The notes under the pieces: generated by a model
Told to the model about the DNA's origin: nothing
The model's database searches: none
The model's input: only the letters and a program-made list of their open reading frames with translations
Program-made: the position numbers and the translations under genes
Assembly (NCBI GenBank): GCA_030432295.1
Contig: JAUIHI010000002.1
Span: 1 to 64,000, forward strand
Direction of reading: 5' to 3'
Length of the DNA stretch: 64,000 nt
Origin: Anaerolineae bacterium
GTDB taxonomy: Bacteria > Chloroflexota > Anaerolineae > Caldilineales > Caldilineaceae
Shown here: piece after piece, positions 15,780-28,137 of the stretch
How the letters are laid out: the number at the start of each line of letters is the position of its first letter
Numbering within the stretch: the first letter of the stretch is position 1

Positions 15780-16943
15780 TTAAACCCGCTCCTCCGGATC
15801 AAAGAGCCGTTTGTATTCCAGCACAGCGAAACGGTCGGTCATCCCCGCGATATAGTCGCAGACCACCCGGTGCAGACCGCCGGGCTGGGTGTCGATGCGC
15901 TCTTGGGTGGCGGTGGGGAGCTGCTCCGGTTCGGTCACAAAGGCATCGAAGAGACGGCGCAAAATGCGGTCCGCCTTGGAGGCCATACGCACCACCCGGT
16001 AGTGACGGTAGAAGTTTTGGTAGAGAAAGCCTTTTAGTTCCTGATTTTCCTCGGCCAGCTCGGCAGAATAGCAGGCCACATTCTCTGGCAGGTTGCGCAA
16101 ATCTTCCAGACTTTCCACCCCCTGGGCCACGAGACCAGCGCCCGTCGCCCCAATCGCATCGCTGACTTCTGTCCCTACCAGACGCCGAATGAAGCGGTGA
16201 CGGGTCAGTTCGTCGTTCAGGTCTGCGCTGCCCGTCATCCCCAAACTGGCCAGCACCCGGCGGGCAATCGCCAGTTCCTGCACAGCCTTCGCCTGTAAAA
16301 TTCCCGCACGCAGCCCGTCGTCCAGATCGCTGGTATTATAGGCGATCTCATCGGCCAGATTGCTCAACTGACATTCCAGCGTGCCTTTCTCCTCCGGGCA
16401 ATAGTCCCGGGCATCCACAATATCATAGGAGGTGTCGTGCTTGACCACACCCTCCCGCACTTCGTAGGTCAGGTTCAGCCCCGGATGTTCCGGGTAGCGC
16501 CGTTCCAGTTCGGTGATAATCCGGTAGGTCTGCTTCTGGTGGTCGTAGCCGTCGTGGTCCGCCATCAGACTGTTCAGTGTCGTCTCCCCGGTGTGGCCGA
16601 AGGGGGGATGGCCCAGGTCGTGGGCCAGACAGATGGCCTCGATCAGGTCTTCGTTGCAGCCCAGGGCACGGGCCATTGTGCGCCCGATCTGGGCCACTTC
16701 GATGCTGTGGGTCAGCCGGTTGCGGTAGTGGTCGCCCTCGGAATAGACAAAGACTTGGGTCTTATATTCCAGGCGGCGGAAAGCGGTGGTGTGGATGATC
16801 CGGTCCCGATCCCGCTGATAGGCCGTGCGGTAGGGGTGTTCGTCCTCCGGGTATAGCCGTCCGCGGGAACGGCTGTTGCGCATGGCAAAGGGAGCCAGCG
16901 CTACCTCCTCCCGGTCTTCCAGTTCCTGGCGTGTGACTTGCAT
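15780..16943 (-). CDS. dgt: dGTP triphosphohydrolase-like HD protein
   Basis: Hydrolyses dGTP or dNTPs to nucleoside and triphosphate. It is 387 aa, the short dGTPase type-2 length. HD-domain metal ligands are visible: H79 in RLTHSIEVAQ, H108-D109 in AHDLGHPPFGHTGE, and the later Asp in SNLADEIAYNTSDLDDG. The N-terminal RDRDRIIHTTAFRRLEYKTQ motif is typical of the family. AGGAGG lies about 6 nt before the ATG. It converges on the preceding two-TM gene across the GGGTATT hairpin. Confidence 0.93.
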   Translation of the reverse strand: MQVTRQELEDREEVALAPFAMRNSRSRGRLYPEDEHPYRTAYQRDRDRIIHTTAFRRLEYKTQVFVYSEGDHYRNRLTHSIEVAQIGRTMARALGCNEDLIEAICLAHDLGHPPFGHTGETTLNSLMADHDGYDHQKQTYRIITELERRYPEHPGLNLTYEVREGVVKHDTSYDIVDARDYCPEEKGTLECQLSNLADEIAYNTSDLDDGLRAGILQAKAVQELAIARRVLASLGMTGSADLNDELTRHRFIRRLVGTEVSDAIGATGAGLVAQGVESLEDLRNLPENVACYSAELAEENQELKGFLYQNFYRHYRVVRMASKADRILRRLFDAFVTEPEQLPTATQERIDTQPGGLHRVVCDYIAGMTDRFAVLEYKRLFDPEERV

Positions 16944-22577: not shown

Positions 22578-22641
22578 CCTTCCCGGAAGCGGCCAGCACC
22601 AGATACCTACGCCCTAAATGCTGTGGCCGCTTCCGGGAAGG
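22578..22641. repeat. TTCCCGGAAGCGGC hairpin, copy 1
   Basis: Perfect 18-bp arms CCTTCCCGGAAGCGGCCA (22578-22595) and TGGCCGCTTCCGGGAAGG (22624-22641). A second element with the same arms is at 32531-32594. It lies between the malG terminator and the 3' end of the convergent protease gene. Confidence 0.8.
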
Positions 22642-22680: not shown

Positions 22681-25600
22681 TTACCGCAGCGTGCGGTGGG
22701 CCGTATTGACAAATACCATTCGCCCGGTAGCCGTCATGCGGCTGGGGCCGTCGTCAAAGCCCCAGAGCATCCAGAAGTTGCTCTGCATCAGCAGATCGCC
22801 GTAACGCTGATCCTTATCATTGAGGCCAAATACCTGCACTTCTTTGGACTCGTTGAGCAGAATATCGACCCGTCCGCTCGGTTTCTCGTAGAGTTTCAGG
22901 AACTCATCCCGGAACTGAAACTCGTAGGGATAGCGCCAGATGGAATCGCTCACCCGTTGGGCGATGATCGACGTTCCGTCGCCGTGCGCGCCGTTGGGAG
23001 AGCCGATGTGCAGGCCCAGCTTGCCAAAGAAGGCGTAACCCCCTTCGCCCATCCCCAGCACAGGCTTCTCGTACTGGCGAATGTGATCCAATGCTTCCGG
23101 CGTACCCCACTCAGTCAGATAGCCCGTGTCCGGTCCCACAATCACCAGATTGTAGAGAGTCATATCCGCGGCGGGCACGCTGTTCATCTGCACCATATCC
23201 ACACCGATACCGTTGGCCTGGAGCAGCGTCTTCACTTCCTGGCCCTTGGCTCCGTCGCTTCTATAGATGTAGAGAGCGCGGGGTTTGAGATGGAAGCTGG
23301 TGTTGCGGTAGAGGGTGAAGGGCTGGCCGTTCAGGTCTATGCCCCGGGCCATCCCCCGCACTTCGTAGGGGCCGGGATAATGGCCTTCGATGAACTGGGC
23401 ACCGTAGATGCCGTCCTTCACCTGGCCGTCTCCGTGCATCCCGTCGTCGTAGAGGGTCAGAGGCCAGACATCCACAGCCGCCGCGCCGGGCTTCGTGCCG
23501 CCGCTGGCATAGGGTGCGTAGACGTGGACCTGCACCGTCTGACCGATCAGAGGCTTGCCGCCCTGATGGAGAACGCCGAGGAGTTGTATGGGACGATGGA
23601 CCACCCGATCCGCCTCTGGCGTGCCCACAAAAAGTTGGAAGCCAACCTGTGTGCGGGCGCTGGCCCAGACCACATACTCGTTGGTATTGCTGGTTTCCAC
23701 GAACGAAACGAGCAGCGTCCACTTGCCAGCCGGAACCTTCTCGATGAGGCACGTCTGGTGGGTGGCATCGTCCCGGCAAAGGGGGTTCTTGCCGTCGGCC
23801 CGGTAGATATTGCCATCCGGGTCCTCCACCTGCAAGCGCAGGGTCTGGCCGGCAATCGCCCAATTCACTGCGAAAGTGAGCCGTTGCAGACCGTCGGGGA
23901 CTTCGATAGTCCAGTGCACCTCTTTGCTCTCCCGGTCCGTCATCCCATAGGCCTGGAAGAGACGCACCTCGTCCAGCACCTCCTCGGCGATGGATTTATA
24001 GGTGTCGCCCAGACGGTTGGGGAGTGTAGCAGGCCAGGCGCTCAGCCCTTCGCCCAGAATCGCGGGGGCGCTCACATCGGCGGCCATCACCGATGCGCCG
24101 GGGTCTGTTACCACATAGGGTGTACCGCCGTTCTGGTTGGCAATCGTCGCCAGCAGCGCGTGATGACCCGCGCTGGCCGGACCCACCGCAACCGTATGGA
24201 TAATCGTATCCGTCGGTTCGATTACCCCCTTCACAGCAGGGGTGTCGTAGAGCGGGTCCTCATTTTCCATGCCGTCGCTGAGCAGCACCAGCACATCGTA
24301 GATACTGAAATCCGCCGGGGCTTTGGTCACTTCGGTCTGCCCGGCCAGCAGCCCTTTGCCGATGGCCGTCCAGTCGGTGGGCACAAAGCTGTCGATAGCC
24401 GACTTGGCCGCGTTCAGTTCAGGCTGAGCCGGATTGTTGCTCACTTCGTGGATTGTATAGGGTGTGCTGGCGTTGGTGCTGAAGCCGACCACCGCCACCC
24501 GGTCGCCGATGAGGGACTGGTCCACAAAGAGGCGGGCCGCATTCTGAGCCGCGGCCATCTTGTCGTAGTCGGACATACTGCCCGAATGGTCCAGAATGAT
24601 GGCCCGGTCCGCCACCTCCCGCTCGGTGAAGAGGATGGCGCGAGTCTCTTTATCGCTGCCGTAGCCAGTCCAGGTCACGCTCAAGTCGTATTTGCTGCCG
24701 CCGCTGTAGACGCCGCTCTGGGGTCGTACATTCAGCCAGAACTGCTCGCCCACAGGCAGACCGCTGACGATTGTGGCCGGTGTGGAATCGATCATCACAC
24801 TGAAATCCCCGGCCACCGCGTCTTGCATATTCCCGATCGCGCTGCCGCCGGTCAGGGCGTTGACCGCCTCGACTACCACCAGCACCACATTCGGGTTGTT
24901 GGGATCGCCAGCCTCGGCCACATTGCCAGTCTGGGGTTCCACAATATTCAGCGTGCGGAAGTCACCGGCCAGGCTGTAGGACTGGGTATTGTTGTTGGGC
25001 AGGGCATTGGCCCGCACCCGGATCGTCCACGTCCCGGCCTGTAGACCAGCCGGGTTGCTCACAGAGACCTGCTCCACATTGTTGAGCCGATCCACGCCCC
25101 GCACCGCGGGCAGAATGTGGGTGGCCCGCACAATCGGATCGGCCACGCCTGTGTCCTGGAAGCTGGCGTTGTAGGTGTTGGCTCTGGGCAGAGCGGGCAG
25201 CACCCAAGGACGGAAGGTGATCCCGTTGGGGTCAATCAGTGTCAGGTCCAGGTCGTTGACCAGTTGGGCGGCTGTGATGTTTTTGGTCGGGTCACCGGCT
25301 TCATCACTCCACACCAGCGTCACTTTGAAGTCCGTGCGCCCGGCAGGGAGTACCATCGAAAAGTCATCGACAGTATCCCCAGGCGAGACCGAATCCTCTA
25401 CGAAGTTGCGGGCACGGACGGCAGATACCGCAGCAGCCGCGTCCACAGCGCCGTAGCCGGTGGACCAGTCTGGCCCGGCGTGGAAGATGACCGGTTGACC
25501 GCTGTCCGGGTCGCTCCAGCCATACTCGGCAAAGCCCGCCTGTCCCGGTTCGTGGACCAAATCCACCGCCGTGTCGATCAGCACCGCTTTGATGGTGGCC

Positions 25601-27879
25601 GGATCGGGTCGCCCCGCGGCGGGGAAACTGCGGTGATACTGTTCGGTCACCAGGGCCACCACACCCGCCACCGAAGGCGACGCCATGGACGTACCGCATT
25701 TAGCGACGTAGCCATTGGTGTCGTTGTCGGTGGAGAAGGCACAGCCCACACCCATTACATCGGGTTTCAGACGCCCGTCCCAAGTGGGGCCGCGGCTGCT
25801 GAAGTCGGTCAGGTTGAAGTTCGTGCCCCGATCTACCGCGCCCACCACAATCTGATTTTTGGAGGGCGAGAGGATGGACCAATAGCCCCGAGGGCCAGTG
25901 GTCGGGTCCGGGTCCGGGTCGGTGTTTTCGTCCGGGCCGTCGGGGACTGTGCCGGTGGTACAATATTGGGCACCGGTTCCCTGATTGCAGGCGGCCCACA
26001 CAACCGTATGGGGCAGAATAGCCGAGCCGCCGCTGGTCAGCTCACCCCGCACCAGCTTGTCCACATCCCGGGCCGCATTGTTGTAGCTGCCACAGGTCAT
26101 CACATAGGAATGGTTGCTGACTTCGATGCCCAGGCTGTTGACCGCGCTGGCGTAATCAGCCGCGCTGTCGCCCCAATAGGGAGCCAGCCCCACGCCGGGG
26201 GCCATTCCCCGCATCTGGAAGTCGGTGCAGCCACCCCCATAAGGACAGTTGGCCACGCTCTGACTGCCGCTGGCCCCCACCATCCCGGCCACGTGGCTGC
26301 CGTGACCGTTGGTGTCGTTGGCGGTGCGCAACAGGCGTCCGGCAAAGTCCGGGTGGGAGAATGTGGGTGTGTTGATGCCTGTGTCAAAGATGCCCACATT
26401 GACGCCGCTGCCGTCCAGCCCGGCATAGAAGATCGACCCGGCAGAGACAGTAGCAGCCTGCACCGCATCCACATTCAGATCGTTGCGGGCCACGTCGTTG
26501 ACCGGCTGCAAGGGTGCGGGTCCTTCTTCCATCCAACGCACCCGGTCCTCCTGGCTGAGGGGAACGATCTGTGCTTTGTCCATCACCACCGCCCAGGACT
26601 GATCGCCGTGGGCTGTGTAGCTGGCCGTATATTTCGCCAGAAGCTCCTCCGCCTCCGCGCTTGGCACATCGGCAAAGAAGGAGACGAGCAGATTGACAGT
26701 GCCGTCGCCGTTGTCTGCCCAGCTCTCGAACTGACCGGCCAGAATCTTCGGGTCCACTTTGTCGCCGGGCAGATAGAGACCCATCCAGCGCACCAGTTCA
26801 GCCACAGGTGTGGCGTTGGGATCGAAGCTCTTGGCGACGGTCACAGAATAGGTTGTGCCGTCGATGTAATTGAGAAGGATAATGCCCGCATCTGCCAGAC
26901 TGGCCTGCTCCTCTGGCGACGGAAGACGGCGCAGTTGGGCCAGGGCGTGGAGATGGGGCAGAGAAGTAGCGGCCAGGGCATCCAACAAATCTTGATCGAT
27001 GCCTGCACTGGGCGTAAACTCGCGCCCGCGCAGAGGGATCGTCAGATTCTCGGTCTGTCCGCCCAGACTGTTGAGAAAGAGGGTGCGTCCGGCATCGGTG
27101 AAGCCATCTGGCCCGCCGCCGAAGCCCCAGAGCAGATAGCGCTGGCCGGTCTTGACCAGAGGGAACTGCCCGTCGTTGTCAGGAAGGGAGGCGATGCGCA
27201 CGCCTTCGGGCAAGCGCTCGGCCAGAGGCACGGCCACACCGCTGCGGGCCGCGTTGAACAGAATCACGACGCCATCGCCAGGAATGGGTACGCCACCGGG
27301 CGCTGTGTAGAAGGGCTGGCTGTCGCCGTAGTCGGCCACTTTGACCGATGCGCTCTCCACAGCCACGCCGTTAGGGTGGCCGATGTCCAGCCCCAGTTTT
27401 CCGTAGAGGGCGTGGCCACCGCTGCCCAGACCCACGACGGGCAGGCCGCTGTCGCGGATGGCCTCGACCAGCCCGGCTTCGGTGCTCCACTGCTCGCCCG
27501 CGCCGGTATCCGCCAGCACGAGGATCAGGTCAAATTGGGTGAAGTCAGGGATACCTGCCCCGGGCGCATCCCCGGTTCGGCTGCCGGGTGCGCTACTGAT
27601 CAGAGGCAAGAGTAGGTGATGGTCCAATGTAATGGCTTCGGGCGGGGCCACTTTGAAGGACTGGGCGCTGAAGCCGTTGCCGTTGAGCAAAGCCGCCCAG
27701 CCGGTGGCCTGACTGTCGTCCTGGCTGTAGACAATGGCTACACGAATGGGGCCATCAGCAGAGGGCGCGGCGAATGCCTGGTCTTTCTGCACTACGACAG
27801 TAAGCAACCCCAGGATCAGGAGCAGAGTCAGAAGGAAGGCGAGAAAAGGTGAGAGGAAATAACGCAAACGTTGTGTCAT
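22681..27879 (-). CDS. secreted subtilisin-family protease with VWA domain and duplicated terminal domains
   Basis: 1732 aa. The ATG at 27879 has AAGGAGGACC upstream; upstream frame is rejected. A signal peptide covers residues 1-36. Residues ~45-310 form a glutamine-amidotransferase-like domain (VGLGSGGHALYGKLGLDIG, YLLWGFGGGPDGFTDAGRTL). The S8 catalytic domain has D499 (GIFDTGIN), H526 (NGHGSHVAG) and S731 (CGTSMASPSVAG). A jelly-roll-like region follows. The VWA domain has a complete MIDAS: DHSGSMS at D1097, a later Thr in DWTAIGKGL, and LLSDGMEN. Residues ~1533-1732 repeat the N-terminal domain (LGMGEGGYAFFGKLGLHIG, FWMLWGFDDGPSRMTATGRM). Likely an extracellular or surface protease. Confidence 0.9.
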   Translation of the reverse strand: MTQRLRYFLSPFLAFLLTLLLILGLLTVVVQKDQAFAAPSADGPIRVAIVYSQDDSQATGWAALLNGNGFSAQSFKVAPPEAITLDHHLLLPLISSAPGSRTGDAPGAGIPDFTQFDLILVLADTGAGEQWSTEAGLVEAIRDSGLPVVGLGSGGHALYGKLGLDIGHPNGVAVESASVKVADYGDSQPFYTAPGGVPIPGDGVVILFNAARSGVAVPLAERLPEGVRIASLPDNDGQFPLVKTGQRYLLWGFGGGPDGFTDAGRTLFLNSLGGQTENLTIPLRGREFTPSAGIDQDLLDALAATSLPHLHALAQLRRLPSPEEQASLADAGIILLNYIDGTTYSVTVAKSFDPNATPVAELVRWMGLYLPGDKVDPKILAGQFESWADNGDGTVNLLVSFFADVPSAEAEELLAKYTASYTAHGDQSWAVVMDKAQIVPLSQEDRVRWMEEGPAPLQPVNDVARNDLNVDAVQAATVSAGSIFYAGLDGSGVNVGIFDTGINTPTFSHPDFAGRLLRTANDTNGHGSHVAGMVGASGSQSVANCPYGGGCTDFQMRGMAPGVGLAPYWGDSAADYASAVNSLGIEVSNHSYVMTCGSYNNAARDVDKLVRGELTSGGSAILPHTVVWAACNQGTGAQYCTTGTVPDGPDENTDPDPDPTTGPRGYWSILSPSKNQIVVGAVDRGTNFNLTDFSSRGPTWDGRLKPDVMGVGCAFSTDNDTNGYVAKCGTSMASPSVAGVVALVTEQYHRSFPAAGRPDPATIKAVLIDTAVDLVHEPGQAGFAEYGWSDPDSGQPVIFHAGPDWSTGYGAVDAAAAVSAVRARNFVEDSVSPGDTVDDFSMVLPAGRTDFKVTLVWSDEAGDPTKNITAAQLVNDLDLTLIDPNGITFRPWVLPALPRANTYNASFQDTGVADPIVRATHILPAVRGVDRLNNVEQVSVSNPAGLQAGTWTIRVRANALPNNNTQSYSLAGDFRTLNIVEPQTGNVAEAGDPNNPNVVLVVVEAVNALTGGSAIGNMQDAVAGDFSVMIDSTPATIVSGLPVGEQFWLNVRPQSGVYSGGSKYDLSVTWTGYGSDKETRAILFTEREVADRAIILDHSGSMSDYDKMAAAQNAARLFVDQSLIGDRVAVVGFSTNASTPYTIHEVSNNPAQPELNAAKSAIDSFVPTDWTAIGKGLLAGQTEVTKAPADFSIYDVLVLLSDGMENEDPLYDTPAVKGVIEPTDTIIHTVAVGPASAGHHALLATIANQNGGTPYVVTDPGASVMAADVSAPAILGEGLSAWPATLPNRLGDTYKSIAEEVLDEVRLFQAYGMTDRESKEVHWTIEVPDGLQRLTFAVNWAIAGQTLRLQVEDPDGNIYRADGKNPLCRDDATHQTCLIEKVPAGKWTLLVSFVETSNTNEYVVWASARTQVGFQLFVGTPEADRVVHRPIQLLGVLHQGGKPLIGQTVQVHVYAPYASGGTKPGAAAVDVWPLTLYDDGMHGDGQVKDGIYGAQFIEGHYPGPYEVRGMARGIDLNGQPFTLYRNTSFHLKPRALYIYRSDGAKGQEVKTLLQANGIGVDMVQMNSVPAADMTLYNLVIVGPDTGYLTEWGTPEALDHIRQYEKPVLGMGEGGYAFFGKLGLHIGSPNGAHGDGTSIIAQRVSDSIWRYPYEFQFRDEFLKLYEKPSGRVDILLNESKEVQVFGLNDKDQRYGDLLMQSNFWMLWGFDDGPSRMTATGRMVFVNTAHRTLR

Positions 27880-28137
27880 CGTACCGGTCCTCCTTGGCGA
27901 ATGTGCCCGATGGATGGGCCCATAACTTCCAGATTTGTGAGAGACACGGGATAGCGAAGAGATTGAGGAGAGAAGACACGAGGAAGGAAAGGGTTGAGTT
28001 GGGTATCTCCTTTCAGTCATTCACAGACAAAAGCGTCGGGTTTTTGCAGGTCTCTTCAGAAATTGGACCTGCCACAGAGCTGCCCACAAGTGTAGCACAA
28101 ATGAGTGCCTGTGCTGTTCAGAGGCAGTCTGTCGGAG

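Follow-up and report, generated by a model that had tools for sequence, protein, structure and literature searches.

The minus strand of the window (the whole stretch of 64,000 nucleotides that was analysed) carries a gene whose product appears to be a subtilisin-type protease that is secreted and synthesised as a zymogen. Both ends of this protein bear homologous domains predicted to adopt a class I glutamine amidotransferase-like (GATase1/ThuA/GIFT) fold, and in sequence alignments both are devoid of the amidotransferase Cys-His-Glu residues. The C-terminal copy belongs to a long tail, proposed here to be a general-purpose extracellular targeting and holding unit. The probability of this explanation, taken jointly with all its parts, is put at roughly 0.55. 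The new elements are the domain combination, the two-ended layout and an uncatalogued domain family.

The gene and its domain order

The open frame spans 28020..22681 on the minus strand and counts 1779 aa from its first ATG. Translation likely starts at Met48 (27879), which is preceded by AAGGAGG and followed immediately by a signal peptide. A preliminary description, made from the sequence alone, reported a 1732-aa protein for 22681-27879; this length is correct when counted from Met48, and the strand, which had been left unstated, is minus. Residues are numbered below in the 1779-aa frame, and subtracting 47 gives the 1732-aa numbers of that description. The domain order, as read from sequence and predicted models, is signal peptide region, N-terminal GATase1-like copy (N copy), two ferredoxin-like domains, S8 protease, PPC-type domain, VWA, a domain with a DDG..DG motif and C-terminal GATase1-like copy (C copy). 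The features are as follows.

22681..27879, minus strand: whole gene, 1732 aa plus stop codon, starting at Met48 of the 1779-aa open frame
27889..27895, minus strand: Shine-Dalgarno-like AAGGAGG, 9 bases upstream of the ATG at 27879
27766..27879, minus strand: Sec-type signal peptide region, residues 48-85 of the 1779-aa frame, with a basic start, a long hydrophobic stretch and AFAA, as read by eye
27046..27753, minus strand: N-terminal GATase1-like copy, residues 90-325, with a low-confidence insert at model residues 52-69
26776..27003, minus strand: first ferredoxin-like (beta-alpha-beta-beta-alpha-beta) propeptide-type domain in the predicted model, residues ~340-415
26524..26700, minus strand: second ferredoxin-like propeptide-type domain in the predicted model, residues ~441-499
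25546..26412, minus strand: Peptidase_S8 domain, residues 537-825, with the triad D499/H526/S731 (1732-aa numbering)
25009..25371, minus strand: PPC-type beta domain, C-terminal to the protease, residues 884-1004 (Pfam PPC 30 bits, cut-off 25.9)
24106..24600, minus strand: VWA domain with MIDAS (DHSGSMS ... T ... D), residues 1141-1305
23353..23460, minus strand: 'choice-of-anchor X' motif NF041940, residues 1521-1556 (NCBIfam, 27.1 bits, cut-off 25)
22684..23310, minus strand: C-terminal GATase1-like copy, residues 1571-1779, the very end of the protein
22684..24951, minus strand: shared tail ('chassis'), residues 1024-1779, ~755 aa, comprising VWA, linker, DDG..DG motif domain and C copy

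Two plus-strand ORFs of 808 and 832 aa that overlap the gene are antisense and were taken as shadow frames, not real genes. Some 40-100 bases past the stop codon, on the minus strand, a perfect 18-base inverted repeat with a 28-base loop (window 22578-22641) resembles a terminator, without an obvious T run.

The Pfam model Peptidase_S8 (PF00082) matches the protease with 120 bits against a cut-off of 21.8, and the subtilase triad of the predicted protease is complete and in order, with Asp499, His526 and Ser731 exactly where the preliminary description had placed them. Both ferredoxin-like domains ahead of the protease look like subtilase propeptides in the predicted model, and may be read as I9-like. 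The VWA domain is matched by VWA_2 of Pfam (33.7 bits, cut-off 27), and its MIDAS (motif DxSxS...T...D) is intact in the alignment (DHSGSMS, T, D); DHSGSMS is located at 1097 in the 1732-aa numbering, in agreement with the earlier reading. The genome to which the window belongs contains 16 Peptidase_S8 matches above the cut-off, and therefore secreted subtilases are an expanded family there.

Two of the related proteins with a domain copy at each end depart from this pattern. In L034 (6179-11593, minus strand) and L037 (3-2039, minus strand) the motif of the subtilase catalytic Asp, VGIFDTGIN, is replaced by IGHMERKPA and VGHFERRAD, respectively (DTG by MERK or FERR). Both keep the catalytic His; L034 keeps the Ser too, and the sequence of L037 ends before it. 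The N copies of these two proteins are the most divergent ones. Judging from their sequences, they may be inactive or changed proteases. Two of the seven genomes with the two-ended layout thus have another sequence where the Asp motif should be, and so protease activity is not constant across the gene family.

Homology, predicted fold and residues of the terminal domains

As was found by the BLASTP search, the N and C copies share 34% identity over 161 aa (E 2e-22). Their Smith-Waterman score is 199, and 500 shuffles gave a mean of 34.1, a standard deviation of 5.4 and a maximum of 54. These shuffles, together with two-ended orthologues in six further genomes, exclude an artefact or a chance repeat. 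The idea that the same domain stands at both ends is thereby confirmed as homology, and the four paired motifs quoted in its favour were located at 150, 1609, 249 and 1704. The alignment of 41 domain sequences (A5) has the invariant columns G88, G90, G91, G107 and W183 and the conserved frames 'P-[IV]-L-G-L-G-E-G-G-Y-A-F-F-G' and 'L-W-G-F..GP..MT..G..LF.N'.

The terminal copies of the window protein have no Pfam match, and 25 members of the domain family showed nothing above cut-off in Pfam 2025 or NCBIfam 2026. A known Pfam or NCBIfam domain under another name was considered and rejected, as the matches were sub-threshold only (e.g. flavodoxin, E 0.0035 and 0.0027). The domain may well be recognised by the InterPro structural class 'class I glutamine amidotransferase-like'. 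Viral contigs scanned with the C copy contained no relative.

The AlphaFold2 models of the C copy (pLDDT 95.5, pTM 0.92) and of the N copy with the propeptide region (pLDDT 87.1, pTM 0.75) predict an identical order of strands and helices, save for the insert of the N copy, which is probably disordered, and one short extra helix in each. The structural matches of the C copy (VIA) include the ThuA-like protein 4pxy (Z 16.1, rmsd 3.3, 192 aligned), IFT52 (5fmr, Z 14.8) and OST48 (6s7t, Z 14.2); comparison of this predicted model with the anthranilate synthase glutaminase 1i1q_B gave Z 15.1, rmsd 2.8 and 174 aligned. The N model is matched by 8aa2_G (Z 15.3, rmsd 3.2, 195 aligned), 4pxy (Z 15.0), OST (6ezn, Z 13.8), IFT52 (5fms, Z 13.0) and 1i7q_B (Z 14.5, rmsd 3.1, 179 aligned, likewise for the predicted model). 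ThuA-like structures (4pxy, 1t0b) are the best or joint best match for both copies, and for both the GATase1-like matches far exceed the level of unrelated ones. Foldseek returned the same GATase1-like class for the C copy (best E 5.9e-8), and site-1 protease is absent among the structural matches listed for the copies. According to the predicted models, both copies have the class I glutamine amidotransferase-like fold; the preliminary guess of a fold of this type thus stands, and the two termini, checked for differing folds, have the same secondary-structure order and the same best structural matches.

Similarity at the sequence level is slight. Sequence profiles compared with solved structures gave short Rossmann-like matches only (2l69, E 5e-5 and 4e-5). 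The hhalign comparison with four amidotransferases of the same genome was weak (E 5.9e-4 in one comparison, probability 29%), and that with its three ThuA proteins gave E 0.017 and a probability of 2.7%. Because the profile matches are weak, the kinship with amidotransferases and ThuA rests on predicted structure.

Class I glutamine amidotransferases share the predicted fold and this weak profile similarity with the copies, but the catalytic Cys and the His-x-Glu pair are absent from the latter. When the domain profile was aligned with that of the four amidotransferases, the invariant Gly88 took the place of the Cys nucleophile, Gly188 that of the His and Ser190 that of the Glu. No column of the 41 rows shows Cys, His, Ser, Asp, Glu or Lys in 90% or more of the sequences. 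With an invariant Gly at the Cys position and no His-Glu pair, both terminal copies are probably binding or regulatory pseudo-enzymes.

Distribution, origin and the shared tail

The two-ended layout was found in seven genomes, as single ORFs in five of them (the window genome, G014, G025, G009 and G019) and split between contigs in two. One of the split cases is G018; the other is the Anaerolineae isolate CSSed11_269R1, where L085 represents the N part and L054 the C part, with the break at residue ~1375. This isolate is additional to the six two-ended cases among 46 genomes of the family, and so an architecture that might have proved common turned out to be rare. Identity to the window protein over the full length is 69% for L052, 64% for L053, 54% for L055 and 48% for L034. 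The other six genomes of the window's genus (completeness 74 to 98%) contain a single-copy protein only. The window genome encodes such a protein as well (L038, 6746-10492, plus strand, contig C45), a secreted protein of 1249 aa with one GATase1-like copy and no Pfam match; each of the six other genomes searched in the genus has a counterpart of it.

The domain itself is distributed more widely. It was matched in 23 of 100 related genomes, in 16 of 46 family genomes and in at least 4 of 400 genomes drawn from the phylum. The scan of genome contigs yielded 36 loci, four of which repeat G014, G025, G009 and the C half of G018. The domain was seen in Chloroflexota, Planctomycetota, Omnitrophota, Deinococcota, archaea and others; the records are metagenome-assembled genomes (MAGs), with taxon names taken from record titles, and single taxon cases may therefore be misbinned. 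Planctomycetota have it at the C-terminus of beta-helix proteins (L064, L066, L068), it ends a CARDB protein from Trueperaceae (L086), and in an Omnitrophota protein that combines a dockerin with a reprolysin-like metalloprotease (L062) it is located near the N-terminus. Chloroflexota proteins of ~900-1200 aa carry it in the first half, and in L040 a copy stands beside a CBM96. Two small proteins, one from a Bathyarchaeota and one from a Lokiarchaeota MAG (L061, 7893-8744, and L071, 5066-5884, both plus strand), begin with a signal-like stretch, contain a single copy and end in a hydrophobic segment, and by their sequences likely represent a minimal membrane-anchored form.

The phylogenetic tree of terminal domains (48 rows) placed the seven N copies in one clade (100/99) and the seven C copies in another (100/99). 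The C copies group with the single copies of C39-peptidase proteins (96/97), and the N copies are near L062, L067 and L078 with weak support (82/80). A tree constraining N and C copies together was not rejected (AU p 0.251). The term 'duplicated', used in the preliminary description, is apt as far as homology goes; it may mislead about origin, given the separate clades and the closeness of the C copies to those of C39 proteins. The N copy may have arisen by duplication within the gene or have been joined from elsewhere, and joining is favoured because of the modular distribution of the domain.

The C copy is also C-terminal in proteins combining a C39-type peptidase with a VWA (L057-L060, L065). 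Over ~705-805 positions the tail as a whole is 31-36% identical to L057-L060, L065, L050 and L149-L152, all of the C39 type, and in the same range to L161, a contig-edge fragment of 684 aa from which the protease part is missing. L049 is a remote C39-type relative of the tail, with 27% identity and the MIDAS lost. Seven C39 regions were aligned and retain the Cys, His and Asp/Asn columns, the alignment of L049 stopping before the last column; the Pfam scores for C39 are close to the cut-off (21.0 to 26.0 bits against 24). In a survey of the class, at least 67 of 396 genomes matched some part of the tail at E <=1e-15, many of these matches covering the GATase1-like or the VWA part alone. As the tail is also found behind C39-type cysteine peptidases, it is not tied to the S8 protease.

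Beyond the two-ended proteins, those closest to the S8 half (~327-1024) are L159 and L160 (1862 and 1838 aa), S8 proteins without either copy. An S8 half without the copies and a tail behind C39 peptidases represent, at the level of sequence, a modular assembly. It seems that these bacteria mix and match cutting units with tails. The related VWA tail of L155 and L158 lacks a GATase1-like domain, and a carbohydrate-binding module, CBM96, forms the C-terminal end.

Counting L155 and L158, four proteins of 1300-1800 aa have VWA tails of this family (L155, 667-6132, and L158, 3-5168, minus strand; L153, 1368-5603, and L154, 2597-6553, plus strand). The models used detected no S8, C39 or GATase1-like domain in them, and the part ahead of the VWA matches nothing in Pfam.

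Proposed function, known systems and genomic context

The tail works with two unrelated protease folds, and for this reason targeting, adhesion or ligand binding is a more likely role for it than catalysis. In the proposed mechanism the VWA would make metal-dependent contact with a protein, and the GATase1-like domain would bind a glycan, another ligand or a partner. The CBM96 that ends the related VWA tails of L155 and L158 and the copy beside a CBM96 in L040 were counted in favour of binding, and GIFT domains of the same fold have been proposed to bind sugars (PMC7226087). The N copy, ahead of the propeptides, might serve as a second binding module. After self-cleavage it would leave with the propeptide or stay bound to it, and the C copy would stay with the VWA and the protease; the zymogen would then have two binding caps and the mature enzyme one. 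This order of maturation events is an inference.

A rather doubtful alternative to binding is that of a lock on the zymogen: through contact with the protease, the GATase1-like domains would gate its active site or support it, and the N copy would keep the zymogen inactive until its release freed the enzyme. In every two-ended protein seen the N copy does precede the propeptides. In human site-1 protease, a subtilase, a single GIFT subdomain supports the active site; this subdomain packs on S8, supports the oxyanion-hole Asn and may control access (PMC11231238), and it is this precedent that keeps the lock alive. However, VWA and about 700 residues separate the C copy from the protease of the window protein, and the tail with the C copy works with an unrelated protease fold too.

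It is unlikely that the C-terminal copy is a sorting or anchoring signal that fixes the protein at the cell surface or exports it. The C copy forms the last residues of all five complete two-ended ORFs and of the C39 proteins, and the 'choice-of-anchor X' motif precedes it, but in the archaeal L061 and L071 the domain is internal and followed by a separate transmembrane segment, and the domain is not C-terminal in many Chloroflexota proteins of ~1000-1250 aa or in the N copies.

Similarly improbable is a matched regulatory pair of caps, in which the N copy would pair with the C copy or the protease and the enzyme would remain locked, or held at a surface ligand, until it cleaved itself. The C cap and the VWA tail, common to serine and cysteine proteases, would, if this were true, constitute a protease-independent unit of control and targeting across bacteria and archaea, in the fold class to which the GIFT subdomain of site-1 protease belongs. 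Finally, it is very unlikely that the copies are enzymes that use this cleft for a different reaction. The fold as such is that of an enzyme, and at least 90% of the 41 rows agree at Thr62, Tyr141 and Asn202, but no nucleophile, acid or base is conserved across these rows, and Glu89 in the 'GEGG' turn is missing from the N copies.

Among known systems, site-1 protease (S1P/MBTPS1; 8UW8, 8UWC) is likewise a zymogen subtilase with a non-catalytic GATase1-like/GIFT domain, and the window protein reaches 8uw8/8uwc in its S8 part (phmmer, E 2e-8). In site-1 protease, however, a single GIFT subdomain stands straight after a P-like domain, with no VWA and no N-terminal copy, whereas the window protein continues from the protease into a PPC-type domain and a VWA and has its GATase1-like copies at the two ends, which places it outside that family. 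The GIFT domains of IFT52 and OST48/Wbp1, already known as GATase1-like pseudo-enzymes, share the fold (Z 13.0-14.8 for IFT52 and 13.8-14.2 for OST48/OST); at the sequence level no Pfam model scores above its cut-off in the 25 members of the terminal domain family. The KP-43-type subtilase 1wmd matches residues 517-936, the protease and the following beta domain (phmmer, E 1.4e-16); the matched region of its chain has no terminal domains and no VWA.

Proteases with a VWA are also known already, namely CLCA (PMC6851300). The CLCA proteins (self-cleaving metalloprotease and VWA) likewise fuse a protease to a MIDAS VWA, and the window VWA matches that of CLCA1 (6pyo, E 4.6e-5; TIGR00868, 34.6 bits); however, the cut-off of the CLCA family is 900.85 bits, the match spans the VWA alone and the protease is unrelated. 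No relevant description of the two-ended layout was found in the open-licence PubMed Central literature. The earlier statement that no protein with this layout had been described can accordingly be kept for the two-ended layout with a VWA in the literature searched, but not for the pairing of a subtilase with a GIFT domain, which is known from site-1 protease.

The domain represents a recurrent extracellular domain of several bacterial phyla and two archaeal MAGs, unnamed in Pfam 2025 and NCBIfam 2026, and one new profile could annotate it. A tail common to S8 and C39-type proteases amounts to a natural experiment on pseudo-enzyme domains in secreted proteases, and it gives the GIFT subdomain of site-1 protease, itself poorly characterised, a counterpart in bacteria.

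The neighbours of the gene in the window, named by eye from their translations, include genes of a maltose-type ABC transporter, dgt, a flavin-dependent oxidoreductase and others. A conserved operon partner was sought by comparing 14 window ORFs with the other loci, and the neighbours did not recur beside two-ended genes; this negative is weak because several of the compared contigs are short. A dGTPase-like gene (window 15780-16943, minus strand) is located a few kb from the two-ended gene, and a gene 63% identical to it at L058 (2526-3683) adjoins the C39-VWA gene there; this shared neighbour could be due to chance or to old synteny.
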